A program made the translations under genes and the position numbers. Shown here one piece after another: positions 1 through 63,516 of a stretch of DNA of 64,000 bases. The stretch spans positions 1-64,000 of the forward strand of contig CAMZLP010000011.1 of assembly GCA_947311535.1 (NCBI GenBank). The letters are read 5' to 3'. Source of the stretch: an uncultured Deinococcota bacterium. Lineage in GTDB: Bacteria > Deinococcota > Deinococci > Deinococcales > Trueperaceae. The notes under the pieces are model-generated. The model saw nothing but the letters and a program-made list of their open reading frames with translations, searched no databases and was not told the origin of the DNA. Positions within the stretch are counted from its first letter, which is position 1. Every line of letters begins with the position of its first letter.

Positions 1-1623
1 GGATATTTACTTAGTTTGCTAATACTAGTAACGATAGTTGGCTTCTTAGCATCTCAGATATTTTCTCAAAATGTTCTTGCTCAGGAGTCTGTAGAATTTA
101 AGGCCAAAGCTCTTATTGGTGATTATGAATTTTATTGGTTGTATTTAAATAAATCAGCTAGTTTTAATGATAAGCAAGAGCTAGTTTCTCTACCAGAAGA
201 TGGAGTGCTTAGGCTCGAGCAAAAACTAAGTGAGCCTGAGAGAAAGCTAGAAGTGCGTAATACGGATTCTGGTTTGCTTTATGAATATTTTATAAACAAT
301 GAAAAAGCGGAATATGACGAGCAAGCAAAGGCATGGTTTCTTGACGCTATTAAGTCTAGCCTTTACGACCTTAGAAGTAATAAATATAGGCATGAATTAA
401 AGCCAGAACGTCGTTCAGGCCAAAGCTATGATAAAAATACATCTTATAGCTACAGTTGGTCAACTAGAAATATTGACAAAACCTTTGCTTCTGGCAATAG
501 AATTGGGCATACGATATTTTCATTTAGAGAAGATTTTATACCTTTTAGATTTAGACTTTATAACCCATATCGAAGATTGCCTGAAGAAAGAATATTACTA
601 GCTCAACTAAGTTCTTTGTATTATGGTTTGGATTATCCTGATGCTATGGGTCGGGGTCGCAATGTACCTAGCTTGGCTGATTCGATAAACTCTTTTTTAA
701 AGGCTTATCAAATAACTAATGATATTAAAACTCTTTTGACTAAAATTGCTCATGAAATAGAGCAAGATGATATTAGACAGCAAGTTTTAGTAAATATAAA
801 TGCAAAAACTATTCAAGATAGACCTAGTGCCCTCTATGTTGTGCCATCAAATATGATTTATGCCAGACAAAATCTATTTGTTAGAACATTTGGTAACTAT
901 GCTATTTCAAAAGATGCCAAACTAATAAAACCAACTGAAGCAGGTGCTTATATAATTATTGAAGAAATTGATAGAGTTGATTCCAAAAAGCTAATATTAG
1001 CAAACCACAATGGCCAAATAGATATGCGTTATTTTGTCAATGATCTGGAAAGCCCAATTTCTGATGATGTTTACAAATGGCTACATAAGGTAAATAAGAA
1101 ATTTATTGAAGAAATTCTAAAAGAGCAAGTAACAGATTCAAATGAATTAATAGAAAAAACTATTAACCAAGCCGAAAATGACTCTAATAAATCTGGTGTT
1201 TACAGAGTTAATTATTTTGCTCAAGCTATCACAGATGATTTAGTTTATGAATATTTACAGCTACCTTCTAAAACCCTTAAGGAACTAATAGAGGATGAAA
1301 ATGCCATGTTCTTTTCTCTACTAAATAAGCAGTATCAGATTTTTGGTTTACTAAATAAAGAAGAATATATCCCCTTTGTTGAGCAGACTTTGTATGAGGC
1401 CATAGATTATTATCCTATAAACGAGCGAACTCTTGAAATGATTTTTTCTCACTTAAATGAGAGTGGAAGCGAGGAGATTATAACAAAGGCCTTAGTGGCA
1501 CTAGTTCCTAAACTCCCAAAAGATGACCCAGAAATTATGGCAAAGTTTAATTCTTTGGTGGATACAATCCAAAACCAAACCCTAAGAGAACAAATCCAGA
1601 AGCGTTTGGCGGCAAAACAGTAA
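1..1623 (+). CDS. Secreted protein of unknown function, copy A (5' end outside window)
   Basis: The reading frame is open to the window edge, so the true start lies upstream; an internal TTG at 16 is the first start-like codon. The N-terminus visible here is a hydrophobic stretch ending in a signal-peptidase-like site near NVLAQ, so export is likely. The mature part begins with a domain of about 90 residues containing the pattern DYEFYWL, SLPEDG, RKLEVRN and AWFLDAI. A related module recurs around residues 290-370 (YAISKDAKLI, KKLILANHNG). From memory this resembles a beta-rich domain found beside M56/BlaR1-type proteins, but that is recollection, not a search. The C-terminal third is helical. 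It is a paralogue of the gene at 1989-3683. Function unknown. Confidence 0.75.
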   Translation, partial: GYLLSLLILVTIVGFLASQIFSQNVLAQESVEFKAKALIGDYEFYWLYLNKSASFNDKQELVSLPEDGVLRLEQKLSEPERKLEVRNTDSGLLYEYFINNEKAEYDEQAKAWFLDAIKSSLYDLRSNKYRHELKPERRSGQSYDKNTSYSYSWSTRNIDKTFASGNRIGHTIFSFREDFIPFRFRLYNPYRRLPEERILLAQLSSLYYGLDYPDAMGRGRNVPSLADSINSFLKAYQITNDIKTLLTKIAHEIEQDDIRQQVLVNINAKTIQDRPSALYVVPSNMIYARQNLFVRTFGNYAISKDAKLIKPTEAGAYIIIEEIDRVDSKKLILANHNGQIDMRYFVNDLESPISDDVYKWLHKVNKKFIEEILKEQVTDSNELIEKTINQAENDSNKSGVYRVNYFAQAITDDLVYEYLQLPSKTLKELIEDENAMFFSLLNKQYQIFGLLNKEEYIPFVEQTLYEAIDYYPINERTLEMIFSHLNESGSEEIITKALVALVPKLPKDDPEIMAKFNSLVDTIQNQTLREQIQKRLAAKQ

Positions 1624-1767
1624 TAATGCTTAATATTAGCTAAGTGATATAAAATTTTATTTGAAAAATGCTTGTGATGAATTTGGGTCTGGGCTATTGC
1701 CCTTTATCCACTTTATCGCAGGCATTTTATTGATAGCGTAAACTATATAGGGGTGAGCTTAGAGAAT

Positions 1768-1913
1768 GTCAGATTATTTTAAATTTGTTTAATTACAGCT
1801 ATGGTGATGTTCTGGTAGATATTTTGGATAGGCTCGAGCCTAAGCCCCCCCAAGATAATCTAGAGATAATGCAAAGATACAATGCGTTATTAGCTACTTT
1901 AAAGTCACTATAA
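1768..1913 (+). pseudogene. Remnant of a third paralogue (C-terminal end only)
   Basis: Between the two paralogues, one frame reads ILNLFNYSYGDVLVDILDRL, then EPKPPQDNLEIMQRY, and ends with TAA at 1911-1913. The DNA around 1801-1876 is nearly identical to 3558-3633 at the end of the downstream paralogue, differing at only a handful of positions. No start codon, signal peptide or N-terminal domain precedes it, and the sequence from 1624 to 1767 carries no recognisable gene. The simplest reading is a tandem array of at least three copies in which the middle copy was lost by deletion. Confidence 0.75.
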
Positions 1914-1948
1914 AATAAGATTAGGATACTCTAAAAATCAGCTTTAAA

Positions 1949-1957
1949 TGCTATAAT
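1949..1957 (+). promoter_or_regulatory. Extended -10 promoter for copy B
   Basis: TGCTATAAT combines a consensus -10 hexamer (TATAAT, 1952-1957) with the TG of an extended -10 element. It lies about 30 bases before the ATG at 1989. No good -35 is seen, which fits an extended -10 promoter. Between it and the gene are the inverted repeat TTTCAT/ATGAAA (1964-1981) and a Shine-Dalgarno sequence (AAGGGTG). Confidence 0.55.
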
Positions 1958-1988
1958 GTAGTGTTTCATGGTTGTATGAAAGGGTGAA

Positions 1989-3683
1989 ATGGCTATAGAT
2001 TTATCAAATAAATTCTTAGGGCAAATAATTACATTATTGGTATTTTGGCTGTTTTTAAATCCAATATTTGTTCCAGTGGTTTCACAATCTAGCCCTGAGT
2101 CAATAATTAAAAGCACAAATCTTATAAAAGATTATGAATTTTATTGGTTAACTCTTAATAAAGATGCAAACTATAAAATTAGAAATGGGCTATCAGATAT
2201 TCCGATTGGCGAATCATTAACTATTGAGCAAGTTTTAGCTATGCCCGAGAGAAAAGTAGTAATAAGAAATACCAAGAACGGTTTTGAATATCAATATTTT
2301 GAAGATGGCAAGAAAATTAATAAGCAAGAACTAGCCCAAGATTGGACAAGCAGTATTATGAAAATAATTCTGCCATATCAAGAAGATGAGTTTTTGCCAG
2401 ACCCAGCTGTTTTACATATGCCAACCGTAGGAAGTTGGGGAGATAATCTTTTTGATGAACATACTGGCATTACGCATATTGGTCTAAGCAGATATTTGCA
2501 TAGTGAAAGCGAACATTATGGGCTGCCATTATTAGCTGTAGGAGGGTTTCGACTTCCTGGTGAAAAGTATATGCTCTCAAATATTGCCTATAATTATTAC
2601 TTTGTCAAAAATCTTGATTTTGACGAGACGGAGTATGCAGCAGAATTAAAACAATTTTTTAATAATTATGATATTACTGAACCTGTTAAAGTAATAATTG
2701 CAAAAATCATTGCTGAGTTTAAAAATGATGATTTAAGAGCAGATTTAACTAAACAATTAGAAGCTGAGCCTGATTCAGAAATGGTGTTTTATTATCCACC
2801 AGCTCCAGAAGCTAGAGATTACATTCCTGCTACTGGCGGTTTTTATTATACGGCAATTGGTGAATACGTTCTCGCTAAAGATGCTTCATTTATTAAGCCT
2901 CTTGCAGATGGAAATTACTTTATTATTGAGTCAGCATTTAAAAGTCTAGCCAGAAAACTGATAATTTCTAACCATTCTGATAAAATTACCAGCAGATATT
3001 TAGAAGATGATATAGAAACAAGCTTGCCAGATGATTTTGATGATTGGTATAGGCAGGCGCTCGTTAAGCTAACTGATAATTTCATTAAAAACGGCCTCAC
3101 CACCGATTATGAAAAGGGCTTAAAATCTTGGGTTAGAAATGCGTCACAAAGCTTAAAAGAGCTAATTAATGCTGGTTCTTATGTTAGAGGACCACTATAT
3201 GTTAGAGGATTTGATATAGGCGATTATCCTACACCCTACTCTTTTAGACGAGAAGATGATGCTCATGAAGTGCTTTCTTATGTATATATCCCAGCAAAAG
3301 CTGATGCCCCTTTTTTTACGTATGGTGGAGAGTTTCTTGCTTCTAATAAAGATTTCCATGACTATGTTGAAAATGATAACGCCAAAGTCTATTCGCTTCA
3401 TCATGAACAATGGAGTTTAGGTTTCGGTCGACGTTCATCTAATCCGCTATACAAAGATTTATTGCGTCAGCACTTTTTTGATGCAGTAGATTATTATTCA
3501 GGTTTTGGCAAAGCTGGCTTTGATTACTTGTATTTGTGGCTAAATCAAATGCCATATGATGATGTTCTGGCGGATATTTTGGATAGGCTCGAGCCTAAGC
3601 TCCCCCAAGATAATCTAGAGATAATGCAAAAATTTGCAGCTTTAAAAGAAGCTGTTCAAAAATCCCAGTATCTAAGTAATTGA
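1989..3683 (+). CDS. Secreted protein of unknown function, copy B
   Basis: This 564-residue protein has a hydrophobic signal segment at residues 9-32 and is a paralogue of the gene that precedes it. The N-terminal module (DYEFYWLTLNKDA, RKVVIRNTKNG, near residues 47-110) and a second related module near residues 290-360 (GEYVLAKDASF, RKLIISNHSD) suggest an internal duplication. The C-terminus is helical and ends in the segment shared with the decayed copy upstream. The start at 1989 is supported by the AAGGGTG Shine-Dalgarno and the extended -10 promoter. The stop is TGA. No catalytic motif is visible. A role in envelope signalling or binding is possible from the apparent BlaR1-associated module, but this is a guess. 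Confidence 0.75.
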   Translation: MAIDLSNKFLGQIITLLVFWLFLNPIFVPVVSQSSPESIIKSTNLIKDYEFYWLTLNKDANYKIRNGLSDIPIGESLTIEQVLAMPERKVVIRNTKNGFEYQYFEDGKKINKQELAQDWTSSIMKIILPYQEDEFLPDPAVLHMPTVGSWGDNLFDEHTGITHIGLSRYLHSESEHYGLPLLAVGGFRLPGEKYMLSNIAYNYYFVKNLDFDETEYAAELKQFFNNYDITEPVKVIIAKIIAEFKNDDLRADLTKQLEAEPDSEMVFYYPPAPEARDYIPATGGFYYTAIGEYVLAKDASFIKPLADGNYFIIESAFKSLARKLIISNHSDKITSRYLEDDIETSLPDDFDDWYRQALVKLTDNFIKNGLTTDYEKGLKSWVRNASQSLKELINAGSYVRGPLYVRGFDIGDYPTPYSFRREDDAHEVLSYVYIPAKADAPFFTYGGEFLASNKDFHDYVENDNAKVYSLHHEQWSLGFGRRSSNPLYKDLLRQHFFDAVDYYSGFGKAGFDYLYLWLNQMPYDDVLADILDRLEPKLPQDNLEIMQKFAALKEAVQKSQYLSN

Positions 3684-3802
3684 GAGCATGTTTCGTAAAA
3701 ATGTTAGTAGTATTAGCCTTGACTAGTCTTAGCTAGTTTAGCCAAATATTTCATTTTTAAGGATTTTTTGCTACTTTAAATCATAGTGTTAAAATGATTA
3801 GA

Positions 3803-7792: not shown

Positions 7793-8575
7793 TTATGGGG
7801 CTTGGATTAATACAACCTTTTCTAATAGCCTAATATTAACGGCTGGCTCTATAACAAATTTTATGTGCAGGTCATTAGGGTCTCGGTTAGGCATTTCTGA
7901 AACTACACCCACAGTAATTCCCTGCGGAAATAAACCACCCAAGCTGTGGGTTTCTACAATGTCACCTAGTTTTACAGGTTTTTCTTCAATAAAGTCGGTG
8001 ACACGTAATTTATTATTGGATACACCAACAAGCAAGCCTTGACCACCTGCTCCACGCACTGTTATACCAATACGAGATTGAGGGTCTGTTATGGCTCTAA
8101 CACTTGCTTTGTGCTTATCTACACCAGTTACTAAACCAACTAAGCCCTTGGGGCTAGTTACGGGCATATCTACTCTTACAGAATCTTTACTGCCCTTGCC
8201 AATTGTGAAGCTGGTTAATATTGAAGATGGTGCAAAGCCTATGATAGGAGCAACTATTTTAGCTCCAGGGGAGATTAATTCGCGGACTTGGAGCAAATCT
8301 GTGAGATCCTTTAGCTCGAGCTCGAGCCTACGATTATCATTTCTAAGTTCTGCCACTTGGGTATTTAATTCTTTATTGAGTTTTTGTAAATCTCTTCTAT
8401 CAGCCAAGCTGATTCCAGCATTGCGGATATTTTTGCCAGCTCGAAAAAATATTTGGGTTGGCATGGCAACATTAGCTGATATTTTATAAGGAATTTTGCC
8501 AATAAAAGCCGAAAGTGCAAAACTAAGTAAACCAAGAGCAATTAAGATGTACCAACTTTTGAGTAAATCAGACAA
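7793..8575 (-). CDS. mreC: Rod shape-determining protein MreC
   Basis: MreC is a bitopic inner-membrane protein that scaffolds the lateral-wall elongation machinery. The 260-residue product has one N-terminal transmembrane helix (residues 9-26). A coiled coil of about residues 62-95 (RRDLQKLNKELNTQVAELRN) comes next, and then the periplasmic double beta-barrel domain with the characteristic SPKGLVGLV and GDIVETHSLGGLFPQGI. It overlaps the end of maf by 8 bases. Unusually, mreD and mrdA are not adjacent but 38 kb away. Two overlapping GCTCGAGC repeats fall in the coiled-coil codons. Confidence 0.92.
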   Translation of the reverse strand: MSDLLKSWYILIALGLLSFALSAFIGKIPYKISANVAMPTQIFFRAGKNIRNAGISLADRRDLQKLNKELNTQVAELRNDNRRLELELKDLTDLLQVRELISPGAKIVAPIIGFAPSSILTSFTIGKGSKDSVRVDMPVTSPKGLVGLVTGVDKHKASVRAITDPQSRIGITVRGAGGQGLLVGVSNNKLRVTDFIEEKPVKLGDIVETHSLGGLFPQGITVGVVSEMPNRDPNDLHIKFVIEPAVNIRLLEKVVLIQAP

Positions 8576-9143
8576 GCTCTACCCCTAATTCTTTGGCCAT
8601 ATTTACAATATTAGCCAGACTTAAACCCATGACATTAAAATAGCAGCCGTTAATCTTTTCAACCAAGACAGAGCCTTTGCCCTGAATGCCATAACCCCCT
8701 GCTTTATCTAGACCTTCTTTGGTACTAGTATACCAAGCAATCTCTTTTTTATTTAAATCCCTAAAATAAACATCTGTTTTAACTGTTTTACTAATGACTT
8801 TATCTTTGTAAATAACGCTATGCCCTGTATAAACCTGATGGGCTTTGTTGGCTAGTTGTTCTATAAATTTGGCATTTTGGCTGCTGTCTTTAGGTTTTTC
8901 TAATATCTTATTATCTAATACCACAACTGTGTCAGCGGCAATAACTAGAGCATTGGGGCTATCTTTTGCTATGGCTCGAGCCTTTAGCTGGCTTAAGCGA
9001 TAAACCAGTTCTGGGCCAGTTTCATTTTTTAAAATTGTTTCATCAACATCAGCAGCAATAACCCGAAAATCAATAGCAATCGCTCTGAGTAATTCGCTTC
9101 TGCGTGGCGAAGCACTAGCTAGTATTATCTCTGGAGCGGTCAT
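8568..9143 (-). CDS. maf: Maf family nucleotide pyrophosphatase
   Basis: Maf proteins hydrolyse non-canonical or modified nucleoside triphosphates in the cytoplasm (dTTP/UTP-type or m7GTP-type). The 191-residue sequence opens with the diagnostic ILASASPRRSELL and contains ALVIAADTVVVLDNKILEKP, DVYFRDLNKKEI and AGGYGIQGKGS, all family signatures. Length is normal. It is upstream of mreC in a two-gene operon, a common linkage. The GGYGIQG segment with Q fits the dTTP/UTP-pyrophosphatase (YhdE) subgroup, though substrate cannot be settled from sequence alone. Confidence 0.93.
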   Translation of the reverse strand: MTAPEIILASASPRRSELLRAIAIDFRVIAADVDETILKNETGPELVYRLSQLKARAIAKDSPNALVIAADTVVVLDNKILEKPKDSSQNAKFIEQLANKAHQVYTGHSVIYKDKVISKTVKTDVYFRDLNKKEIAWYTSTKEGLDKAGGYGIQGKGSVLVEKINGCYFNVMGLSLANIVNMAKELGVELV

Positions 9144-9729: not shown

Positions 9730-10411
9730 AGAACTCCTCAAAAAGAAAGTTGCGCTGGCAGCTTTAGAGCATATTAAGTCTGATAGTTTAGTTGGTTTGG
9801 GTACTGGCAGTACCGCCAAATATCTAATAGAGGGCCTGGGTGAGAAAATAAAAAGGGGAGAGCTCAGCAATATAACTGCTATTGCCACCTCAAAAGAAAG
9901 CCATGAGTTAGCTATAAAACAAGGCATAACTATGCTTGAATTATCGCAAAAGGAAATTGATATTGCTATTGATGGTATGGATGAAGTTGACCCAGAACTC
10001 AATCTTGTTAAAGGATTAGGCGGTGCGCTAACTAGAGAAAAGTTAGTCGAAGCTCATGCCAAAAAACTAATCTATATGGCTGATGATTCTAAAATTGTTG
10101 ATTATTTGGGTCAAAAAGCACCTATTCCGGTTGAAGTAATTCAATTTGGATTGGCTGTAACAAAGGCTAAATTGACTAGGCTCGAGCTTAAACCAGTACT
10201 ACGCCTCAAAAACAATCAGGCCTTTATAAGCGACAACGGAAATTATATTTTAGATTGTTATCTAAACTCTAAAAGGGACTTAGAAGAGCTGGCAAATCAA
10301 ATTATTAAAATTCCAGGAGTTGTAGAGCATGGGCTATTTTTAAATATGGCAGATATTGTGTATATTGCCAAAGAGGAGCAAATAATAAAAATGACAAGAG
10401 ATGATAAATGA
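9722..10411 (+). CDS. rpiA: Ribose-5-phosphate isomerase A
   Basis: RpiA interconverts ribose-5-phosphate and ribulose-5-phosphate in the pentose phosphate pathway. The product has the phosphate-binding GLGTGSTAKY, the DGMDEVDPELNLVKGLGGAL segment with the catalytic Asp residues, and REKLVEAHAKK. I choose GTG 9722, giving 229 residues and the usual N-terminus (AKELLKKKVALAAL). The frame continues upstream to an ATG at 9641, but that would add 27 unrelated residues inside bcp. The start overlaps the bcp stop by 8 bases, implying translational coupling. A GCTCGAGC repeat lies at 10180. Confidence 0.93.
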   Translation: MAKELLKKKVALAALEHIKSDSLVGLGTGSTAKYLIEGLGEKIKRGELSNITAIATSKESHELAIKQGITMLELSQKEIDIAIDGMDEVDPELNLVKGLGGALTREKLVEAHAKKLIYMADDSKIVDYLGQKAPIPVEVIQFGLAVTKAKLTRLELKPVLRLKNNQAFISDNGNYILDCYLNSKRDLEELANQIIKIPGVVEHGLFLNMADIVYIAKEEQIIKMTRDDK

Positions 10412-12506: not shown

Positions 12507-12909
12507 TTTCCATGATCTGCTCGAGCATAATTGATGCTAAGACTTTACGTATTTTAACACTTGCCTCTGTATAATTTTCATTAAGAACACAACGTCCTTT
12601 TTTTGTTTTAGTAATACAGTCTGTATGGGATTCACAATCATCTAAAATTACATAACCTGACATAGCCTGAATAATATCAAGGACAGAAGTCTTACTAGGC
12701 TTACAATTTAACCAAGTGCCGCCATTGCGCCCCATTTTACTAGTGATTAATTCAGCTACTGTTAATTTACGGAGCACTTTGGCCATAAATGCAGCAGGCA
12801 TTTCAAAGTGAGCAGCTATTTCGGCAGCATTTGTGCCAGGATTATTAGCTATCGATACCAAAGCATGGATTGCGTAACTTTCTTCTTTTTTTAATAATGA
12901 TCTATACAA
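12496..12909 (-). CDS. Rrf2 family transcriptional regulator with Fe-S-type cysteines
   Basis: Rrf2 proteins (IscR, NsrR, RsrR) are winged-helix dimers, many sensing redox, NO or Fe-S status through a cluster. The 137-residue product starts at TTG 12909 and has the family start YAIHALVSIA, the helix-turn-helix at residues 27-50 (NAAEIAAHFEMPAAFMAKVL) and the wing RNGGTWL. It also carries three cysteines, C92, C98 and C107, in the dimerisation-helix region where cluster ligands sit; the C-x5-C-x8-C spacing is slightly longer than in IscR. A degenerate copy of the palindrome upstream of both respiratory operons lies 26 bases before its start, suggesting autoregulation. It is likely the regulator of those operons (inference). 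Confidence 0.9.
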   Translation of the reverse strand: MYRSLLKKEESYAIHALVSIANNPGTNAAEIAAHFEMPAAFMAKVLRKLTVAELITSKMGRNGGTWLNCKPSKTSVLDIIQAMSGYVILDDCESHTDCITKTKKGRCVLNENYTEASVKIRKVLASIMLEQIMENVD

Positions 12910-13619: not shown

Positions 13620-14537
13620 ATGAATGAAAAACAGCATAGCATAATAGAACGTTGGGAAAGACGATGGCTAGGTCTAGCATCGGCGATGTCATTGGTTTTT
13701 GTTATATTAATTGCAGCTAATCTAGCTTTTGATAGCAATAATGTCGTGCAGCTTAAACAAAGAGCTAATCCAGCTGAGATTTTAGCTACTGATATATTTT
13801 CTAATCCAGGAGTTATAGAAACATCGGCCAATAAATACAGGGTGGCAATGGTTGCACAAACTTTTTCTTTTAATCCAAGTGAAGTAAGATTGCCTGTTGA
13901 CTCAGAAATTGAATTTTATGTGACTAGCAAAGACGTCTTACATGGTTTTCAAATTAAGAGTACTAATACTAATATGGAAATAATACCAGGTGAGGTTTCT
14001 TATTCAAGCTATACCTTTAAAAAACCAGGTGAGTACTGGGTTATTTGTAATGAGTATTGTGGTATTGGTCATCAAAATATGTTGGGGAAAATTGTAGTTT
14101 TGCCAAAAGCTGTTTATGCTCAAGAACAAGCTAACCCGGTAGCCGAAGAAGCTTCATTGGGTCAGAGCGTATTTGAGACCAACTGTGCCAGTTGCCACCA
14201 AGCAAGCGGTGCAGGTTTAGCAGGGGTATTCCCACCTCTTAAAGGCAATCTGGCAGCTACTTCTAAACTAGACGGTGGCAAAGATTATTTAGTAAATACT
14301 GCACTATTTGGTTTGTCTGGTTCTATAAAAGTTGATGGAGGCTCTTATAACGGAGTAATGCCTGCATGGACGCAGCTTTCTGATGAAGAGATTTCAGCTG
14401 TACTAAATTATGCAATTAGTGGCTGGGGTGATGACGGTGTTGCTGATATAACAGAAGCAGATGTAGCAGCAGCAAGAACTAATTCTTATAGTTCAGAAGA
14501 TGTTCATGGCTTAAGACAAGCCTTGGGCTTAGAATAG
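13620..14537 (+). CDS. cbaB: ba3-type cytochrome c oxidase subunit II fused to a cytochrome c domain
   Basis: The 305-residue protein has one N-terminal membrane helix (residues 17-35) and a periplasmic cupredoxin domain. The CuA ligands are visible: H108 (VLHGF) and C143-N-E145-Y-C147-G-I-G-H151 with M154. After a linker, residues 180-280 form a mono-haem cytochrome c domain with C189-A-S-C192-H193 and a probable axial Met in VMPAW. A fused cytochrome c would feed electrons directly into CuA; it is not part of the Thermus ba3 subunit II. The domain closely resembles the three cytochrome domains encoded next to alternative complex III at 29570-31303. Confidence 0.92.
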   Translation: MNEKQHSIIERWERRWLGLASAMSLVFVILIAANLAFDSNNVVQLKQRANPAEILATDIFSNPGVIETSANKYRVAMVAQTFSFNPSEVRLPVDSEIEFYVTSKDVLHGFQIKSTNTNMEIIPGEVSYSSYTFKKPGEYWVICNEYCGIGHQNMLGKIVVLPKAVYAQEQANPVAEEASLGQSVFETNCASCHQASGAGLAGVFPPLKGNLAATSKLDGGKDYLVNTALFGLSGSIKVDGGSYNGVMPAWTQLSDEEISAVLNYAISGWGDDGVADITEADVAAARTNSYSSEDVHGLRQALGLE

Positions 14538-14549
14538 GAGGACTGAATA

Positions 14550-16217
14550 ATGTCTAGAAAATCAAAGGTGTTTACAGGCCTACCTGAAAAAAAGCTGGCT
14601 TTAGCATTTATTCTAACAGCTTTTGCTGCATTATTTTTGGGCAGTAACTTAGGCCCATTTCAAGCTTTTAACTATGCTGGCTTGAATATATACCATCTAA
14701 AATTTATGCCATTTGTAAATTCGTATTATCAAGGTTTAACATTACACGGTGTGCTTAACGCACTTGTTTTCACAACTTTTTTCATCAGTGGGCTTCTTTG
14801 GTATTTGCCTGCTAAAGAAATGAATATTAGACCTAATATGACTTTTTCTTGGATTTCTTATTTTGTTATGTTGCTTGGTCTAGTAATGGCTGCAGTAGCT
14901 ATATTAGCCAATACTTCAAATGTGATGTACACATTTTATGCGCCATTGAAAGGGCATTGGGGGTTTTATCTCGGATTAGCTTTAGTGGTAGTTGCATCAC
15001 TGATGGTTGCTTTTGAAGTTGTGCGCATGCGCCAAGTTTGGAAAAAAGAGAACCCTGGTAAAGTAACACCAATTGTTACTTTTATGAGTGTAATGCTTTG
15101 GCTAATGTGGGCTATTGCTTCTGTGGGTATTGTTGTAGAAGTTGTTGTTTTCTTAATTCCTTGGTCATTTGGTTTATTAGATGGTGTAGATCCACAAATT
15201 ACTAAAAGTTTGTTTTGGTGGACTGGCCACCCTATAGTATATTTTTGGTTGTTACCTGCTTATGTATCTTGGTACGGTTTAATGCCAAAACAGGTAAAAG
15301 GTGAGCTAGCCTCAGACTCTTTAACACGCTTAGTTTTTGTTCTCTTCTTACTATTTTCTACCCCAGTTGGTTTTCATCACCAATTTACAGATCCTGGCAT
15401 TCCTGCAGGTTGGAAAATGCTCCATTCTATGATGACTATGTTTGTTGGTGTACCTAGTTTGATTACTGCATTCACAATAGGTGCATCATTGGAGCTAGGT
15501 GGTCGGGCACTTGGGGGTAAAGGAGTTTTAGGTTGGATTAAAAAATTACCTTGGAATGACCCAAGTGTGGCGGGTCAGCTAATGGCTATGCTTTTATTTA
15601 TACCTGCTGGTGCTGGTGGTATTGTTTTAGGTAGTTTTAATCTAAACATTATGCTTCATAATACTGCTTGGATTCCTGGGCACTTTCATATTACTGTGGG
15701 TGGCGCTGTTACCCTAACCTTTATTGCTATGACATTTTGGCTTTTACCTCATTTAACCAACAGAAAGCTTTTTTCTAAGCGTTTAGCACTAGGCACTGTC
15801 TGGTCTTGGTTTATTGGTATGATTTTCTTTTCAACTGGTATGCACTGGGAAGGTTTATTATTGATTCCAAGACGTGCTCACATATCGAATATGGCTGAAA
15901 ATCTACAAGGTGTTTATGCTGGTGCTGAATTCCCGATGATGCTAACAGGTATTGGTGGCGGAATTCTTTGGCTCTCTATAGCTTTATTCTTTACAGTTAT
16001 TTTGGGTACAATCTTTTTAGGTAAAAAAGATGTAGATGTACCTGAGGTACCATTTGTTGATAATAAATGGGCTAGTGATACTGGTCTTGCCGCAGCGATG
16101 GATAAAATATGGGCATGGTTTGCAGTGGCTGCTTTGCTTGTAGCCGTAGTTTATGCACCAACCTTATACGAACTTTTCTCTACCTATGTTTCTATACCCG
16201 GCCAAACTCCGTGGTAA
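14550..16217 (+). CDS. cbaA: ba3-type cytochrome c oxidase subunit I
   Basis: The catalytic subunit reduces oxygen at a haem a3-CuB centre and pumps protons. The 555-residue protein has about 13 membrane helices. Visible ligands are H66 (low-spin haem), H227 with Y231 in GHPIVYFWLLPAY (CuB and the cross-linked Tyr), H276-H277 (CuB) and H378/H380 in WIPGHFHITVGG (haems a3 and b). The divergent sequence and lack of the usual D-channel motif support the B-type (ba3) class. A Shine-Dalgarno (AGGAGG) lies before ATG 14550. It is the third gene of the operon, 12 bases after subunit II. Confidence 0.94.
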   Translation: MSRKSKVFTGLPEKKLALAFILTAFAALFLGSNLGPFQAFNYAGLNIYHLKFMPFVNSYYQGLTLHGVLNALVFTTFFISGLLWYLPAKEMNIRPNMTFSWISYFVMLLGLVMAAVAILANTSNVMYTFYAPLKGHWGFYLGLALVVVASLMVAFEVVRMRQVWKKENPGKVTPIVTFMSVMLWLMWAIASVGIVVEVVVFLIPWSFGLLDGVDPQITKSLFWWTGHPIVYFWLLPAYVSWYGLMPKQVKGELASDSLTRLVFVLFLLFSTPVGFHHQFTDPGIPAGWKMLHSMMTMFVGVPSLITAFTIGASLELGGRALGGKGVLGWIKKLPWNDPSVAGQLMAMLLFIPAGAGGIVLGSFNLNIMLHNTAWIPGHFHITVGGAVTLTFIAMTFWLLPHLTNRKLFSKRLALGTVWSWFIGMIFFSTGMHWEGLLLIPRRAHISNMAENLQGVYAGAEFPMMLTGIGGGILWLSIALFFTVILGTIFLGKKDVDVPEVPFVDNKWASDTGLAAAMDKIWAWFAVAALLVAVVYAPTLYELFSTYVSIPGQTPW

Positions 16218-16794: not shown

Positions 16795-17292
16795 TTAGCT
16801 CTGATTTATAGGGCATAAAACTTTATATTCCTTATAGCTAATGAAATTTAGCAGTGAAAAATATTTTTCTAAATTGCCTTCTAAGGTCATAACGGCTGCT
16901 TTTTTAAATTTGATATTTACCTGAAATTCTCGACCATTTAACAAATATGATGCCAGACCAGACATTAGAGGCTCATGGCCAATAAGGGCAATATTACTGG
17001 ATTTTGGGTAGCTTTTTAACTCTTCAATTAGTGATGCATAGTCAGAAGTTAGTAGGTTTTTAGTCAAAACCATTTCTGTTTTGGAAATATTTTGCAACGC
17101 AAGAGCAGTTTGAGTGGCTCGGAGGTAGGGGCTCGAGCATAATTTATCAAAACTAATTCCAGTTGTGTTCAAAAAATTTCTTAGTGTCTCAGCTTGTAAA
17201 AAACCTTTTTCAATTAAGGGTCGTTTAGAATCATCTGGATATTGGATTCCTCGTGTATCAGCGCTTGCATGACGAATAAGATATAACTTCAT
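16795..17292 (-). CDS. sixA: SixA-like phosphohistidine phosphatase
   Basis: This belongs to the histidine phosphatase superfamily, removing phosphate from histidine or other substrates. The 165-residue protein has the N-terminal RHG-type motif as LIRHASADTRG (R7-H8) and SSPYLRATQTA (second Arg). The second catalytic histidine lies in LIGHEP. Small size and the LIRHASA start point to the SixA branch. Its start overlaps the end of the CYTH gene by 4 bases, so they form a coupled pair. A GCTCGAGC repeat lies at 17131. Confidence 0.87.
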   Translation of the reverse strand: MKLYLIRHASADTRGIQYPDDSKRPLIEKGFLQAETLRNFLNTTGISFDKLCSSPYLRATQTALALQNISKTEMVLTKNLLTSDYASLIEELKSYPKSSNIALIGHEPLMSGLASYLLNGREFQVNIKFKKAAVMTLEGNLEKYFSLLNFISYKEYKVLCPINQS

Positions 17293-40746: not shown

Positions 40747-40856
40747 AATATTCTCCTATTTTTATATAGTAATAGATAACGTTTGAATTTATATTAGCAC
40801 TATTGCTTATAACTTTTATAAGAAATTTATCAGGCTCGAGCTATTTTTAAATTTGA

Positions 40857-50513: not shown

Positions 50514-51440
50514 GTGAAGCGTTTGTTTTTATTATTGTTTGTTAGCTCTTTGCTCAGCTCTTGCTTGCCAAGAACTGAGCAATTACGGGTAGAACCCAAA
50601 GTCGATATAATTCCATTAGTATTTAGCCTGCAACCTGAAGCTACAATAATCGAGAGTTTTGACCCACCTGGGGCTGGTTCTCAGCTTGATTTAAAGCTTG
50701 GTATATTAATTAAAAACCCTAATTCTTTTGCTATTAATTTAAGAAAGCTCAATTATCAATTAGCATTAGCTGGTACAAGAATAGAGACAAATGAGCTCGA
50801 GCCTAACTACTACATACGTGCTTATGGTGAAGTGCCTATTAGTATCCAAGTTAAAGCATCAGTAGAGGGTAAGTCTAAGTTAATAAAAGCTATTGCTCGA
50901 GCCTTTACGGGTGTAAATATAGACTTTAGCTTAGATGGCCAGACTGTTTTTGAATCATTAACTCATGAGTTTAAATCTAGCCCAGAGACCTTAGTTAGTG
51001 GGAAAATTGCCGTAAGAAATGAAGTTTTATTACCGCTAATGAGCGTGAATACTGTTGAAACAAGTATTTATTTGTTAAGGGCAGATGCGCCAGTTATAAA
51101 GGTAAATATCTGGGCTCAAAACCCAGGTGAAGTTGGCTACTTTATTTATGGCCAAGAGGTCAACTTAAACCTAGATGGTGAAATTTTAATGTCTCAAGAT
51201 ATAGCTCTTAACGCCTTGCCTGCTAATCAAGTGACTAATATCGAAATATTCTTTTATCCTGATATGGACTATGTTTCAGAAAGCTTAAAAGAAAAAATAA
51301 ATGCCGCTTTGGCAGGCACAGACATGGCATTTTCTTTAACAGGCGATATTTTAATTGATGTTTTAGGTATTGATACCTATAGAGCTGCTGACGGGTGGAA
51401 TGTTTATGGTACTGTTTCTAAGTCTAGCTCGAGCCCGTAG
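50514..51440 (+). CDS. LEA type 2-like lipoprotein
   Basis: The 308-residue product starts at GTG 50514 with a lipoprotein signal ending in LLSSC (lipobox Cys about residue 17). Two beta-rich halves follow, each of the kind seen in water-stress/hypersensitive-response (LEA14-like) domains. The first half has LDLKLGILIKNPNSFAINLR and LNYQLALAGTRIETNEL; the second has INIWAQNPGEVGYF-like sequence and LNLDGEI. Likely outer- or inner-membrane lipoprotein. Three GCTCGAGC repeats lie in or at the end of the gene (50795, 50895, 51427). Confidence 0.75.
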   Translation: MKRLFLLLFVSSLLSSCLPRTEQLRVEPKVDIIPLVFSLQPEATIIESFDPPGAGSQLDLKLGILIKNPNSFAINLRKLNYQLALAGTRIETNELEPNYYIRAYGEVPISIQVKASVEGKSKLIKAIARAFTGVNIDFSLDGQTVFESLTHEFKSSPETLVSGKIAVRNEVLLPLMSVNTVETSIYLLRADAPVIKVNIWAQNPGEVGYFIYGQEVNLNLDGEILMSQDIALNALPANQVTNIEIFFYPDMDYVSESLKEKINAALAGTDMAFSLTGDILIDVLGIDTYRAADGWNVYGTVSKSSSSP

Positions 51441-51495: not shown

Positions 51496-53067
51496 ATGGC
51501 AAAAATTCTTATTACAGATAATATTCAATTAGGTGATTATGATTTCCCAGATATGGAAATTGATAATCGGGCAGGTATCGAACGAGAAGAATTGTTAGAT
51601 ATTGCAAAAAACTACGATGCACTAATTACTCGTAGCAGAACTACAGTTGATTCAAATTTGATATTGGCAGCAAAGAATATGCGCATTTTGGGCAGGGCTG
51701 GGGTTGGTGTTGATAATATTGATATCGATACAGCCAGTAGGCAAGGTGTTGTTATATTAAACGCTCCAGAGGCTAATAATATTTCAGCAGCAGAATTGGC
51801 AATTGGTTTAATGTTAAGCGCCGCTAGGGGTATTTCACGCTCAGATAGCCAAGTTAGAGCAGGGATTTGGGATAGAAAATATTTAGGACAAGAACTTAAT
51901 GGAGCCAGAATAGGCATAATTGGTTTAGGTCGAATTGGCTCTTTGGTAGCTAAAAGAGCCAATGGTTTGGGTATGAAAGTTATGGCCTATGACCCATATA
52001 TTTCACGCCATAGGGCTGATAGTTTAAAAGTTGAGTTATTTGACGATTTATTAGCAATGCTAAAAAAATCTCAATTTTTAACGGTTCATACACCGCTTAC
52101 TGACGAAACTAAAGGCATGATTGATTTGAATGAGCTCGAGCATCTCCCTATGAATGCAATAGTAGTTAATGCTGCAAGAGGTGGGATAATAGTAGAAAAT
52201 GCTTTACTAGAAGTACTTAAAAGCAAAAAGATATTTGCGGCAGGGCTTGATGTGTTTGTGCTCGAGCCTCCTAGCATAGAGCACCCATTACTACAACTAG
52301 ACAATATTGTTTTTACGGCTCACTTAGGGGCAAATACCGCCCAAGCTCAGGCCAGAGTTGGCTCAGAGATACTCGAGCGAACTGTCATGGCTCTAAGGGG
52401 TGACTTTTCTCGGGGGGCAGTCAATGCTCCAGCCTTGGACCCAGCAGTGGTAGAGGCCTTGGGTGAGTATTTAAATTTGGGTGAAATCTTGGGTAAAATT
52501 GTTTCTCAGCTTGCAAAAGGGAGAGTACGTGAATTAAAAATAGAATTTGCCGGTGAATTTGATATAGACCCAGAGCCAATAGTTACAGCAGTAGCCAAAG
52601 GCTATTTGGACCCTATTTTAGATGAAAAGGCAAATTATATAAATGCCACTGCAATTCTTAAAGATCGTGATGTCCGTGTTTCTAAAATTATCGCATCACG
52701 TTCAAAGGATTATATTAGCCATATTTTAGTAAAAGCTTCGGGTAAAGATTTTGAAACTACTGTAGCTGGTACGGTAATGGTTAATAAACCAAGAATTGTT
52801 AGTATTAATAATTTGCCCATAGAAATTATTCCAGAAGGCACAATGTTAGTATGCTCAAATTATGATAGACCAGGGGCTATCGGTAAAATTGGTAGCTATC
52901 TGGGTAAAGCTAATATAAATATTTCTAGTATGCAACTTGCGAGAGTAAGTGCAGATGATTTAGCAATGTTTGTATTAACTTTGGATAAAGTTCCAAATGA
53001 GCAAACAATTAACGATTTAAGAGCAATGCAAGATGTGATTCATAGCTTAGACGTGGTTAAGTTATGA
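51496..53067 (+). CDS. serA: D-3-phosphoglycerate dehydrogenase
   Basis: SerA catalyses the first step of serine synthesis, oxidising 3-phosphoglycerate with NAD+. The 523-residue protein is the long type: catalytic and NAD-binding domains (GLGRIGSLVAKRANGLGMKV; VNAARGGIIVENALLEVLKS), then the allosteric substrate-binding domain and a C-terminal ACT domain (YDRPGAIGKIGSYLG). It is followed 28 bases later by a serine-type aminotransferase. Three or four copies of the repeat fall in it (52134, 52260 and variants). Confidence 0.95.
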   Translation: MAKILITDNIQLGDYDFPDMEIDNRAGIEREELLDIAKNYDALITRSRTTVDSNLILAAKNMRILGRAGVGVDNIDIDTASRQGVVILNAPEANNISAAELAIGLMLSAARGISRSDSQVRAGIWDRKYLGQELNGARIGIIGLGRIGSLVAKRANGLGMKVMAYDPYISRHRADSLKVELFDDLLAMLKKSQFLTVHTPLTDETKGMIDLNELEHLPMNAIVVNAARGGIIVENALLEVLKSKKIFAAGLDVFVLEPPSIEHPLLQLDNIVFTAHLGANTAQAQARVGSEILERTVMALRGDFSRGAVNAPALDPAVVEALGEYLNLGEILGKIVSQLAKGRVRELKIEFAGEFDIDPEPIVTAVAKGYLDPILDEKANYINATAILKDRDVRVSKIIASRSKDYISHILVKASGKDFETTVAGTVMVNKPRIVSINNLPIEIIPEGTMLVCSNYDRPGAIGKIGSYLGKANINISSMQLARVSADDLAMFVLTLDKVPNEQTINDLRAMQDVIHSLDVVKL

Positions 53068-54256: not shown

Positions 54257-55849
54257 ATGCTACAATCTTTGCCAATGATTAATAAAAATACAGGTTCAGA
54301 AACTGATAATATGGAAGAGAGCATACCAAAGATATTGATTGTAGACCTTGGTTCTCAATATACCCAAGTAATTGCCAGAAGCTTGCGAGAGCTTGGCTAC
54401 CGTAGTGCCATACTTACGGATAAACGAGCAGAGCAATGGCTGACTTTGCATAGACCAGAAGCAATTATTCTTTCTGGTGGCCATGCTAGCGTTAGTGACT
54501 TTGAGGCTCCCAAACCACCTACTAATGTTTGGGAGCAAGATCTACCAGTTTTGGGTATTTGTTATGGCATGCAATATATGGTGCAACATTTTGGGGGTCT
54601 AGTTAAACATAAGCGTGGCCATGCTGAGTATGGACCTGCAAGTATCAATGTTGATGATAGTGACGGGCTTTTTATTAGTTTAGATAAGAGGGAAAAAGTT
54701 TGGGCAAGCCATGGCGATACGGTACAAGAATTACCTGAGGGTTTTAAGGCAATAGCTGGTTCAGATGCTTACCAAAATGCTGCGATTTCTAATGAGGAGC
54801 GTAAGCTATGGGGTGTGCAATTTCATCCGGAGGTTAGCCACACGCCTAACGGCAAAAAAATATTGAAGAATTTCATTGCTTCTATTGCCAATATAAAAGA
54901 AGATTGGGAGCCCGTAGATATTATTGAACAGATACAAAGAGAAACCAGAGAGGGCTTTTCTGATAAGAAAACTATAATTGGTTTTAGTGGCGGGGTAGAT
55001 TCTACAACACTTACGGCCATTTTAGCACCTGTACTAGCTAAAAATTTATTGGCAGTATGTATTGATGCTGGGCAATTTAGATTGAATGAGCTCGAGCAAA
55101 TCCAAAATACTATCAATGCTATCGGGGTGCAGTTAAAAATAATTGATGCAGAAGAAGAGCTATTAGAAAAGCTAAAAGGCATAACAGATGCCCAGAAAAA
55201 GCGGTCTGTATTCAGAGAAGTTTATAAAGCAGCTTTTGATAAATCTATAGCTGAATTTGGGGCAGAGATAATTGCTCAAGGCTCGCTGGCTACCGACTTT
55301 ATAGAATCGGGTGCAATAGGCGGAGGTGAAGTAATAAAAACCCACCATAATATCGGCTTAGACTTTGTCAGCGAAGAGAGGCATCCATTTAGGAATTTAT
55401 TTAAGTACGAAGTGCGGGCTTTAGCCAAAGAAATCGGCCTACCTGATTATCTTGTAAGCCGAGAACCATTTCCTGGTCCAGGCTTGATTTTACGAGTTGT
55501 TGGGGCTGATGTTAGCAAAGAACGTTTAGATATTGTGCGTTTTGCAGACAAAACGGTTAGAGATATTTTGGAAAAACATGATTTATTAAATGCAGAGACC
55601 CTATCGCAATTAGTTGTTTATATGTTGGCTGGTTCGCCAGTGGTGGGGGTAAAAGGTGATGCCAGAGTTTATGATGCACCAATTGTAGTACGTGCCTTAA
55701 AAACTGTAGATTTTATGACTGGTGATGGTGTGCAATTTCCGGCTGAGTTGCGTCTAGAAATGACTTTGACGCTTACAAAACACCCACATATTTCACGGGT
55801 ATTATTTGATGAAACGCCTAAACCACCTGCTACAACTGAGCCTGAGTAG
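54257..55849 (+). CDS. guaA: GMP synthase (glutamine-hydrolysing)
   Basis: GuaA converts XMP to GMP using glutamine and ATP. The N-terminal glutamine amidotransferase domain has the nucleophile in GICYGMQYM and the His-Glu pair in FHPEVSHTPNG; the ATP-PPase P-loop is IGFSGGVDSTTL. The C-terminal dimerisation domain ends EMTLTLTKHPHISRVLFDE. The start is uncertain: ATG 54257, 54275 or 54311 are in frame and none has a good Shine-Dalgarno; the conserved domain begins near residue 24, so 54311 is plausible. Length otherwise normal. Confidence 0.95.
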   Translation: MLQSLPMINKNTGSETDNMEESIPKILIVDLGSQYTQVIARSLRELGYRSAILTDKRAEQWLTLHRPEAIILSGGHASVSDFEAPKPPTNVWEQDLPVLGICYGMQYMVQHFGGLVKHKRGHAEYGPASINVDDSDGLFISLDKREKVWASHGDTVQELPEGFKAIAGSDAYQNAAISNEERKLWGVQFHPEVSHTPNGKKILKNFIASIANIKEDWEPVDIIEQIQRETREGFSDKKTIIGFSGGVDSTTLTAILAPVLAKNLLAVCIDAGQFRLNELEQIQNTINAIGVQLKIIDAEEELLEKLKGITDAQKKRSVFREVYKAAFDKSIAEFGAEIIAQGSLATDFIESGAIGGGEVIKTHHNIGLDFVSEERHPFRNLFKYEVRALAKEIGLPDYLVSREPFPGPGLILRVVGADVSKERLDIVRFADKTVRDILEKHDLLNAETLSQLVVYMLAGSPVVGVKGDARVYDAPIVVRALKTVDFMTGDGVQFPAELRLEMTLTLTKHPHISRVLFDETPKPPATTEPE

Positions 55850-55882: not shown

Positions 55883-56680
55883 CTATCGGATTTGCTCGAG
55901 CTTATTCTCCAGAACCACTTTGGAAATCTGGCCAAATGTTGAAGATACTAAGTCACCTTGCTTATTAAAAAATAGGGTTGTAGGAAGTCCGCGTGATTTA
56001 AAATAGTCCGCAACTTGTCCTTGAGGGTCTAATAGGACATGCTCGAGCAGAATTTCATTTTCTTCCAAATAAGCTTCTACATTGCGAGCATTTTCACCCT
56101 GATTAATAAAAATAAATTGAACATCTTGGTTTTTCTTGGCAACATCAGCCAACATTGGCATTTCACGGCGACAAGGTCCACACCATGTTGCCCAAAGGTT
56201 TAAAACTATTGGCCTGCTTGTCAGCTCTGCTAAATTCATAGAATCTGCCGAGAGTTCAGCTAGTTGAATATTTGGTAAGCTTAAAACTCCCGTTTGTTTA
56301 TTGTTGTTTGCAAAGTTCAGGCCAGACCATAAAAGCAAGGCAATTAAGCTAGGAATCACTGCCCACTTAGCGGCATCTTGATCTTTTCTAAAGTACCAAA
56401 CACTATATAATATGGCTGCACCAATACCCCACCACGGTGAAAAACCGCCTTCCCAAAATCTTAGGGCACTAGCTGCTTCTTTGGCAAAACTGCTTATATT
56501 TTCTATTACAAAACCAATACGAGAAAATACTAAGGCAATAATCATGCTATTGCTGGCCCAATTAGAAAGCTTATCGCTTTTTAATTTATTTAATATTTCG
56601 GCAATTATTATAAAAACTAGCAGAGCAGCTAATACATAAAACCGCTCAAGGGAAAGTGAGGCAGGACCAATTTGAATCAT
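55883..56680 (-). CDS. Membrane-anchored TlpA-like thioredoxin
   Basis: The 265-residue protein joins an N-terminal membrane part of about 4 helices (residues 10-125) to a thioredoxin-fold domain with W-C-G-P-C in NLWATWCGPCRREMPMLADV and cis-Pro in SRGLPTTLFF. The membrane part resembles the early helices of prolipoprotein diacylglyceryl transferase, though the His/Arg catalytic set is not seen. The active-site CGPC suits a periplasmic reductant, perhaps for cytochrome c maturation given the many haem proteins here. Two repeats lie in it (55894, 56041). Confidence 0.85.
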   Translation of the reverse strand: MIQIGPASLSLERFYVLAALLVFIIIAEILNKLKSDKLSNWASNSMIIALVFSRIGFVIENISSFAKEAASALRFWEGGFSPWWGIGAAILYSVWYFRKDQDAAKWAVIPSLIALLLWSGLNFANNNKQTGVLSLPNIQLAELSADSMNLAELTSRPIVLNLWATWCGPCRREMPMLADVAKKNQDVQFIFINQGENARNVEAYLEENEILLEHVLLDPQGQVADYFKSRGLPTTLFFNKQGDLVSSTFGQISKVVLENKLEQIR

Positions 56681-59661: not shown

Positions 59662-59671
59662 GTTTAGTGTT

Positions 59672-60703: not shown

Positions 60704-60715
60704 GTTTTTGATAAT

Positions 60716-60751
60716 AAAAAAAGTCACGTTAGCAATAGTGTGACTTTTTTT
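60716..60751. terminator. Bidirectional terminator between convergent genes
   Basis: AGTCAC (60722-60727) and GTGACT (60740-60745) form the stem, with an A-run to the left and T-run (60745-60751) to the right, so it serves the nurA gene and the minus-strand gene beyond. Confidence 0.85.
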
Positions 60752-60762
60752 ATTAATTTATA

Positions 60763-61140: not shown

Positions 61141-61209
61141 AAAATCCTCCGTAATAAACTAAATAAATTTTAACAGATTCTGGCTGTCATGATGTAAACT
61201 AGTTTGTAT

Positions 61210-63516
61210 TTAGCTGGTCTTAATCTCGTCAATGGCTTTTACTTTTTCAATGGCTGCCAAAGTTGCCTCTGGGGTTGCCGGTAGTGCTAGATTGACTGTT
61301 TGATTTTTATCAGAAAAACTAGCTATGGCATCTTTTAGAGCTTCTCTAACAGAGATTGCGATCATAAAGGGTGGTTCACCAATTGCTTTACTACCGTAAA
61401 TTACCCCAGCTTGAGGAGATTTTTCTAAAAGCTCTATTTCAAAATGTTCGGGTATTTCAGCAATAGTAGGTATTTTGTAAGTACTAGGTGCAAAGGTAGC
61501 GACGTGGCCGTTGTCAGCCCAAATAAAATCTTCCATAGTTAGCCAGCCCAAGCCCTGCACAAAGCCGCCTTCAATTTGACCTTTGTCAATATGGGGGTTT
61601 AGGCTTTTGCCTACATCATGGACAATATCAACTTGCCTTAGTTTAAACATGCCGGTAAAAGCATCTATTTCAACTTCGCTAACGGCTGCTGCATAGCTAA
61701 AATAATAAAAAGGCACACCCTTGCCTGATTCATTGTCAAAATAAATATTGGGAGTACGATAATAGCCCGTTGCTGATAAACTGACTTGCTCAAAATAGGC
61801 TCGAGCCACCACATCATTAAAGGAAACTTTATTTTTAGGGTTGTTTTTTGCAGAAACAAAGTCATTTTCAAAACTTAAATCTTCTGGGGCATTGAGCTCG
61901 AGCATATTTGCAGCAACATTTGCTAAGCGAGATTTTAGTGTTTCACAAGCGGCCTTGACAGCTTGGCCATTTAAATCACTACCCGAAGAAGCAGCGGTAG
62001 CACTTGTGTTGGGTACTTTATCAGTTGCTGTGGGCATTAGTCTAAAGCGCTCATAGCTTACCCCAAGGCTGCTAGCAGCCACCTGTAGCATTTTAGTATG
62101 CAAGCCTTGGCCCATCTCGGTACCACCGTGGTTTAGCTGAATGCTAGCATCGGTATAAATTAGGATAAATGCCCCAGCTTGATTCAAAATAGTAAAGGTA
62201 AATGAAATCCCAAATTTTAATGGGGTAATTGCCAAGCCACGTTTTTTATATTTATTGGCAGCATTAAACTTTTTAATTGCAGCTTTTCGACGACTAAAGT
62301 TGGAATTAGCTTTGGCAAGTTTCCAAACCTTTTCCAAACGAACATCATTTAGTACTTGGCCATAATGAGTCTCTTGACCCTCTTTATAGAAGTTGGTTTC
62401 ACGTATTTTGTCAGCAGCTATATCAAGAGTTCTGGCTATATCATCGATGATATTTTCTATTATCACAATGCTTTGCGGGCCGCCAAATCCCCGAAAGGCT
62501 GTTTGCGAAGTCTTGTTGGTTTTGCAAGCGTAGCCAGTTATTGAAATATTAGGAATAAAATAACTGTTGTCAATATGAAACAAGCTGCGTTGCATAATTG
62601 CATGTGATAGGTCGGTGCTCCAACCTGCATCGCTATAAAGATTAATATCCAGTGCTTCTATTTTGCCAGTATTGCTAAAACCGAGCTTGTATTTAGCTAG
62701 TAAGGGATGACGTTTGCCAGTTAGCTTCATATCCAGTTCTCGATTTAAACGCACTCGAGCCGCTCTGCCAGTTTTGCTTGCCGCTAAGGCAGCAATAGCT
62801 GCAAAAGGATTGGCTTGGCTTTCTTTACCACCAAAGCCCCCTCCCATACGCGGACTTATGCAAACAACCCTATTGCTAGCAATGCCCAAAACATGAGCAA
62901 CTGTTGATTGGGTTTCGCTTGGGTGCTGAGTAGAGGAATAAACCGTATAATTTCCCTCATTATCAGGTATAACCCAAGAGGCATGAGTTTCTAAATAAAA
63001 ATGATCTTGGCCAGACATTTCAAACTCATTTGTCATAGTATTTTCAGCATTTTTCAAGGCTTGCTTTGCTTTGCCTCGAGCCATTTTTTGTGGCTCACCA
63101 TGATAGCTTTTTTGCTTTATAGCGTCTTTAATCGTCAAGATAGGCTTTAGTTCTTTGAGTTCAAGCTCTACTTTTCTAGCTGCTTTTCTAGCTATATCTT
63201 CATTTTCGGCAACTACCCAAGCTACGGCTTGGTTGGCATATGAGATATTAGTTTCTGCTAATAAAACTTCATCACTGACTATTGCCCCAGTATTATTTTT
63301 ACCCTCTATATCTTTGGCAGTTATTACTGTTAATACGCCGTCCATTGCTAGAGCGGGTTTTGTATTGATTGAGATGACTTTGGCTCGAGCATATTTTGCT
63401 AATACAGGCCAACAAGTCAGCATTCCCTCAATTTTTACTCTATCGTCTACATAAACAGCCGAACCAGTCACGTGCTGGATAGCACTTTCATGCTTTATTG
63501 CTTTACCTACAGTCAT
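61210..63516 (-). CDS. xdhB: Xanthine dehydrogenase molybdenum-binding subunit
   Basis: The large subunit holds the molybdopterin cofactor and hydroxylates hypoxanthine/xanthine. The 768-residue protein has GGGFGGKESQANPFAAIAAL (Moco binding), FRGFGGPQSIVII (the Arg used for purine binding), TEMGQGLHTKMLQVAA and GEPPFMIAISVREAL with the catalytic Glu. It overlaps the upstream FAD/Fe-S subunit by 4 bases. MoaB in the same window may supply cofactor. Confidence 0.93.
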   Translation of the reverse strand: MTVGKAIKHESAIQHVTGSAVYVDDRVKIEGMLTCWPVLAKYARAKVISINTKPALAMDGVLTVITAKDIEGKNNTGAIVSDEVLLAETNISYANQAVAWVVAENEDIARKAARKVELELKELKPILTIKDAIKQKSYHGEPQKMARGKAKQALKNAENTMTNEFEMSGQDHFYLETHASWVIPDNEGNYTVYSSTQHPSETQSTVAHVLGIASNRVVCISPRMGGGFGGKESQANPFAAIAALAASKTGRAARVRLNRELDMKLTGKRHPLLAKYKLGFSNTGKIEALDINLYSDAGWSTDLSHAIMQRSLFHIDNSYFIPNISITGYACKTNKTSQTAFRGFGGPQSIVIIENIIDDIARTLDIAADKIRETNFYKEGQETHYGQVLNDVRLEKVWKLAKANSNFSRRKAAIKKFNAANKYKKRGLAITPLKFGISFTFTILNQAGAFILIYTDASIQLNHGGTEMGQGLHTKMLQVAASSLGVSYERFRLMPTATDKVPNTSATAASSGSDLNGQAVKAACETLKSRLANVAANMLELNAPEDLSFENDFVSAKNNPKNKVSFNDVVARAYFEQVSLSATGYYRTPNIYFDNESGKGVPFYYFSYAAAVSEVEIDAFTGMFKLRQVDIVHDVGKSLNPHIDKGQIEGGFVQGLGWLTMEDFIWADNGHVATFAPSTYKIPTIAEIPEHFEIELLEKSPQAGVIYGSKAIGEPPFMIAISVREALKDAIASFSDKNQTVNLALPATPEATLAAIEKVKAIDEIKTS

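Follow-up and report, generated by a model that had tools for sequence, protein, structure and literature searches.

The palindromic octamer GCTCGAGC is present in 36 exact copies, from position 213 to position 63390, in the first 64,000 nucleotides of contig CAMZLP010000011.1 from an uncultured bacterium of the family Trueperaceae (Deinococcota); this whole 64-kb stretch is referred to below as the window. Dinucleotide shuffling of the window, which has a GC content of 37.0%, gives a mean of 0.27 copies and a maximum of 3, and under a third-order Markov model the octamer is the top outlier among the 8-mers. An earlier interpretation made from the letters alone (the sequence-only reading) had reported at least 36 copies over this span at a composition near 37% GC, and both figures are confirmed. 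By its sequence features GCTCGAGC is a highly iterated palindrome (HIP)-like element, and we consider it probable that it belongs to a HIP-type system, in which the core CTCGAG is methylated by an orphan N6-adenine methyltransferase (MTase) and a site-accumulating process operates. Homology points to a CTCGAG enzyme in 10 Trueperaceae relatives with enrichment or mild enrichment and in 18 Meiothermus genomes (the specificity of one of its two types, MTase-A, being deduced indirectly); none was found in the 92% complete assembly of the window's own species.

The excess extends over the window's own genome (G000; 2,717,585 bases in 191 contigs, 92% complete), where GCTCGAGC is found 1,592 times and the reversed word CGAGCTCG 41 times in the entire assembly, a roughly forty-fold excess. 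About 0.79 Mb of G000 was read directly, in stretches (547 kb for the Markov model and 786 kb for the density). In the 547 kb, the third-order model that the sequence-only reading had proposed as a check again returns the octamer as the most extreme 8-mer, with 316 copies seen and 20 expected (16-fold); with the motif masked out of the model the expectation drops to 7.4 and the excess becomes 43-fold. The enrichment of more than a hundredfold claimed earlier thus holds against simple composition, but is 16-43 fold against context-aware models. The 786 kb contain 593 copies per Mb, the counts per contig fit a uniform rate (chi-square 51, 59 degrees of freedom), and 5-kb bins have a variance/mean of 0.75, a spacing a little more regular than chance would give. 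No copy occurs in 7.8 kb of contig C40, on which a restriction gene lies, and the foreign-looking restriction islands of G000 (C40 and the start of C152) are without sites. The frame on C40 (locus L018, 194-2308, minus strand) is a type IIG-like restriction-methyltransferase with Eco57I and MmeI domains, and it contains an IS200-like Y1 transposase domain (Pfam Y1_Tnp, 7e-11).

Among the window copies, 20 lie in the Leu-Glu frame, 7 in Ser-Ser, 6 in Ala-Arg and 3 outside open reading frames (ORFs). Leu-Glu being the commonest frame and CTCGAG being generally frequent in the order, the octamer could be taken for a by-product of codon usage or of the Leu-Glu dipeptide (CTC GAG), but this is hardly credible: a synonymous-codon shuffle that preserves the proteins and the codon usage leaves the coding copies of G000 still 33-fold in excess, and enrichment is observed in all three frames and in noncoding DNA. 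A codon-usage origin is thus refuted for GCTCGAGC in G000, in line with the earlier claim that no protein-level cause is at work; in Meiothermus, a residual 3.4-fold excess of CTCGAG remains above the codon shuffle. A transposable unit as the source of the copies is excluded, as their flanks are unrelated apart from a degenerate symmetric extension. Markov-level counts, codon usage and a transposable unit were the three ordinary explanations named in the sequence-only reading, and none of them accounts for the copies.

Symmetrising the flanks of the G000 sites yields a 20-bp extended palindrome, GnnTAGGCTCGAGCCTAnnC. At noncoding sites T occupies position -3 in 72% and A position -2 in 62% of the cases, with G at -6 and at -1 in about half each; the coding-frame sites also show the extension (G -6, T -3, A -2, G -1), in modulated form, and it is therefore a feature of the DNA level. 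Its symmetry at both kinds of site, together with the lack of a detectable CTCGAG methyltransferase in G000 (see below), would suit an abundant DNA-binding protein (a global regulator, or a factor organising the nucleoid or chromosome) that reads GnnTAGGCTCGAGCCTAnnC as a dimer, with the methyltransferase correlation being secondary. We regard such a protein as a rather improbable cause, since, at an equal frequency of the octamer, G025 shows a weak extension and G001, G023, G024 and G027 a faint one or none, since the sites are mostly intragenic and occupy all frames, and since the correlation with the methyltransferases would be left unexplained. Among the genomes compared, the 20-bp form is confined to the window's species. 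The octamer itself reaches 578-837 per Mb in six genomes spanning GC contents of 37-62%, i.e. one site about every 1.2-1.7 kb. Single deviations from it are 5-7 fold enriched at the outer G/C and not within CTCGAG (G000, G024, G025); in G025 deviations at position 2 are also about 2-fold enriched, on 9 counts. In G001, G023 and G027 hardly any variant accompanies the full octamer, the outer deviations being weak in G027 and small or absent in the other two.

The named relatives belong to the Trueperaceae, and this family was surveyed in 39 genomes by the ratio of the octamer count to that of a control word. Enrichment is strong in seven (G000, G001, G023, G024, G025, G027, G037) and mild in five (G010, G011, G026, G028, G036); the others, mostly GC-rich, are at about background. 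The palindrome recurs in several genera of the family and is not a lone curiosity. MTase-A is found in 9 of the 39 genomes (G010, G011, G023, G024, G025, G026, G027, G036, G037), all of which rank above most of those without it. Its gene is flanked by dnaG and the V-ATPase operon in several genera, and most carriers show synteny with these. Carriers of MTase-A or of the second enzyme, MTase-B, have ratios of 1.3-51 vs 0.64-2.5 in the other Trueperaceae, G000 excepted, and rank higher (one-sided Mann-Whitney p 1.6e-5, with G000 counted against the association and kinship uncorrected). On a V-ATPase tree the MTase-A label needs 5 changes, of which at least 4 are forced by well-supported branches; its absence therefore recurs independently. 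Only 3.6 kb could be aligned between G024 and G025 for the conservation of sites, with zero octamers within. In families f2 and f3 of the same order CTCGAG occurs 21,000-28,000 times in 3.5-4.6 Mb (G041, G043-G046) and 14,690 times in 1.9 Mb (G040), with the reversed word GAGCTC nearly absent (2-25 copies); G039 is less extreme, with 13,552 CTCGAG vs 1,196 GAGCTC.

The exchange of the two enzymes in Meiothermus carries the argument on specificity. Of all 64 palindromic hexamers, CTCGAG shows the largest excess (387 vs 47-73 expected) in the surroundings of MTase-A at nine Thermaceae loci, and in Meiothermus it is in 8-fold excess in almost any flank, with little flank requirement. A class search places MTase-A in 14 of 18 genomes of the genus (labelled Meiothermus from named MTase-A loci), and the four genomes without it (G065, G069, G078, G082) all carry MTase-B; the chance of MTase-B falling on exactly these four of 18 is 1/3060. 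CTCGAG reaches 2,185-2,442 per Mb in the four MTase-B genomes vs 1,387-3,072 in the MTase-A ones, and 689-999 per Mb in the genus read as Thermus. M.PaeR7I of plasmid pRSB105, encoded with a partner that matches Pfam XhoI (a CTCGAG family) at 1e-106, shares 61-69% identity with the Meiothermus MTase-B; elsewhere the identity is 52% (G036) and 40% (G001, a copy cut by the contig end). A PaeR7I-like nuclease adjoins MTase-B in G036 only, and within the short Meiothermus loci examined no nuclease gene was found beside it. MTase-A is only distantly related to M.PaeR7I. From their sequences and distribution, the two enzymes look interchangeable and CTCGAG-specific. At the Meiothermus loci L253-L278, where CTCGAG is over-represented, GTCGAC (2 vs about 21-26 expected), CGATCG and GGATCC are strongly under-represented.

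MTase-A is a protein of ~558 amino acids with the Pfam domains M_Eco57I_C, N6_Mtase and Eco57I and an NPPF motif. Its predicted structure (predicted local distance difference test, pLDDT, 84) matches CamA, M.BseCI and M.TaqI, all N6-adenine enzymes, and this fold and the NPPF/NPPY motif suggest that MTase-A methylates adenine. No partner nuclease gene was found beside it at any of 15 Deinococcota loci. Outside this phylum, a nuclease-like neighbour gene of ~250 amino acids is present at 36 of 65 loci of MTase-A homologs; these neighbours gave no match to Pfam XhoI, and the CTCGAG specificity of MTase-A is therefore not drawn from its own neighbours. We infer it instead from the exchange with MTase-B and the correlation with the sites. 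In an analysis discarded as circular, CTCGAG ranked first of 64 for avoidance, the loci with near-zero CTCGAG having been picked by eye. In viral contigs, only relatives of MTase-A of at most 34% identity were found. Distant homologs at L284, L287, L297, L300, L303, L309 and L327 stand beside a conserved gene of ~1,020 amino acids, in place of the 250-residue one, which is perhaps a combined restriction-methyltransferase.

Several observations weigh against a CTCGAG methyltransferase as the cause of the excess. The 92% complete G000 assembly yielded neither MTase-A nor MTase-B; the V-ATPase-proximal place is taken by other genes, and dnaG is followed by unrelated ones. The other methyltransferase genes of G000 are two type IIG-like ones, an Eco57I-type fragment and a cytosine-5 fragment, the fragments being cut by contig ends. 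G026 and G036 carry MTase-A with ratios of only 1.3-1.4, which three relatives lacking it exceed, and because such weakly enriched carriers exist, MTase-A is not sufficient for enrichment; G028, G033 and G038, without either enzyme, reach 1.5-2.5. Carriers of MTase-A in other phyla show no enrichment, and MTase-A was not found in the CTCGAG-rich families f2 and f3 (G039-G041, G043-G046). CTCGAG avoidance at the loci with a nuclease neighbour is not significant (observed/expected 0.87). Type II methyltransferases normally read less than 20 bp, and the G000 extension reaches further. The sister genomes G024 and G025 do carry MTase-A. In G000, either the gene lies in the missing 8%, or another enzyme acts, or some other factor now maintains the sites. 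The orphan CTCGAG methyltransferase that the sequence-only reading had suggested, alongside organising and uptake roles, thus has its counterpart by homology in the Trueperaceae relatives and in Meiothermus, with none found in G000.

In the HIP-type reading that we favour, CTCGAG would be methylated by an N6-adenine DNA methyltransferase (MTase-A or the M.PaeR7I-like MTase-B), whose restriction partner would have been lost while the lineage retained the enzyme. A genome-wide process, dependent on the methyl mark and with a range of ~1 kb, would then allow sites to appear and be retained whatever the frame, up to a spacing of about 1.2-1.7 kb; the driving process would most likely be repair or recombination favouring the marked strand or allele. 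For HIP1, the CGATCG methyltransferases are of the m5C or m4C type, and repair guided by G-methyl-C has been proposed (Elhai 2015, PMC4390886). As the methyltransferase here is of the adenine class, this ratchet is not transferable as written; a repair ratchet would need a reader of methyl-adenine, because an adenine enzyme cannot supply G-methyl-C.

The chief rival to a repair ratchet is methylation-dependent uptake. If the palindrome served natural transformation as an uptake or self-recognition signal, DNA carrying it (in methylated form) would be preferred in uptake or recombination and alleles bearing sites would spread by drive, a reading that we consider possible, at a clearly lower probability than the HIP-type system. 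Known uptake sequences have a density similar to one per 1.2-1.7 kb, and the slightly even spacing, the site-free restriction islands and the flanks differing by species, like dialects of uptake sequences, all fit. A working example is Campylobacter jejuni, which takes in only DNA methylated at RAATTY by the CtsM methyltransferase (PMC10046745). On the other side, no excess is seen in Thermus, a textbook example of a competent genus. To our knowledge, no known uptake sequence is a perfect palindrome. A weak motif search in a sampled quarter of G000 gave no competence genes, a result too weak to count. Tentatively, and with no greater probability than for uptake, the palindrome might be a self-DNA signal in which adenine-methylated CTCGAG steers repair, recombination or uptake, and the 20-bp form to which it has been extended in the window's species would be read directly by a protein dimer, the methyltransferase having possibly been lost by then.

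HIP1 (GCGATCGC) and alternate HIPs have been described in cyanobacteria, with densities of about 500-2500 per Mb and with HIP1 deviations concentrated at the outer positions (PMC4390886). The densities of GCTCGAGC in the six genomes fall within this range. Like HIP1, it is a very frequent GC-rich palindromic octamer, found in all frames at about 1/kb, and among the relatives its presence is tied to orphan methyltransferases that probably recognise the inner hexamer. The species-specific palindromic extensions and the deviations at outer positions are likewise HIP features, so that the analogy drawn in the sequence-only reading is well founded. It is HIP-like and not HIP1, since the core is CTCGAG and not GATC/CGATCG (CTCGAG is not mentioned in PMC4390886), the host belongs to the Deinococcota and not to the cyanobacteria, the methyltransferase is of the adenine class, and the extension reaches 20 bp in G000. 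PaeR7I/XhoI systems share the M.PaeR7I homology of MTase-B, but here the site is over-represented rather than avoided, with a nuclease beside MTase-B in G036 only. The DNA uptake sequence (DUS) of Neisseria and the uptake signal sequence (USS) of Haemophilus are also short genome-wide motifs of similar density, and the RAATTY/CtsM system of C. jejuni, which marks self DNA for uptake, also uses an adenine methyltransferase (predicted here); unlike these, GCTCGAGC is a palindromic octamer, with an uptake role by analogy only. In Helicobacter pylori another methyltransferase site, CCGG, is over-represented together with restriction-modification systems (PMC4687349), but at an observed/expected of about 1.4-1.5, whereas the excess here is tens of fold and the enzymes are orphans.

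In the open-access literature (PMC) no description of GCTCGAGC, of a Meiothermus methylome or of HIPs outside cyanobacteria was found, and all cases discussed in the HIP literature consulted are cyanobacterial; this looks like a second, independent HIP1-like case and the first outside cyanobacteria within the literature searched. What HIP1 does has been an unanswered question since 1995. An independent HIP with another core, in another phylum, with adenine chemistry and in cultured Meiothermus, where one enzyme stands in for another that is only distantly related to it, would make HIP function testable. It would also indicate that adenine methylation can accompany HIP formation, which argues against a model requiring G-methyl-C.

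The window sites, being given without strand, begin with a coding copy in the Leu-Glu frame at 213-220. The copies at 1832-1839 (outside ORFs) and 3587-3594 (coding) form one pair sharing a longer flank, the near-perfect 20-bp extended palindrome GgaTAGGCTCGAGCCTAagC at 1823-1848 and again at 3578-3603. The first of these identical palindromes lies just downstream of the ORF at 16-1623 and the second inside the 3' end of the ORF at 1989-3683; the two ORFs are large, consecutive and paralogous-looking, with no Pfam match. Two copies overlap at 8314-8327 (starts 8314 and 8320), the copy at 36296 is embedded in TAGGCTCGAGCCTA (36293-36306), and those at 25513-25520 and 40834-40841 are intergenic. 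The other exact copies are at 8974-8981, 10180-10187, 12519-12526, 17131-17138, 17323-17330, 21257-21264, 23431-23438, 23836-23843, 24694-24701, 29187-29194, 30998-31005, 34025-34032, 36537-36544, 39206-39213, 40868-40875, 46637-46644, 48076-48083, 50795-50802, 50895-50902, 51427-51434, 52134-52141, 52260-52267, 55090-55097, 55894-55901, 56041-56048, 61799-61806, 61896-61903 and 63383-63390. The window also contains cytochrome oxidase genes at 13620-16217 (COX2 fused to cytochrome c, and COX1) and, at 29570-38619, an apparent operon for alternative complex III that encodes several cytochrome c-like proteins.

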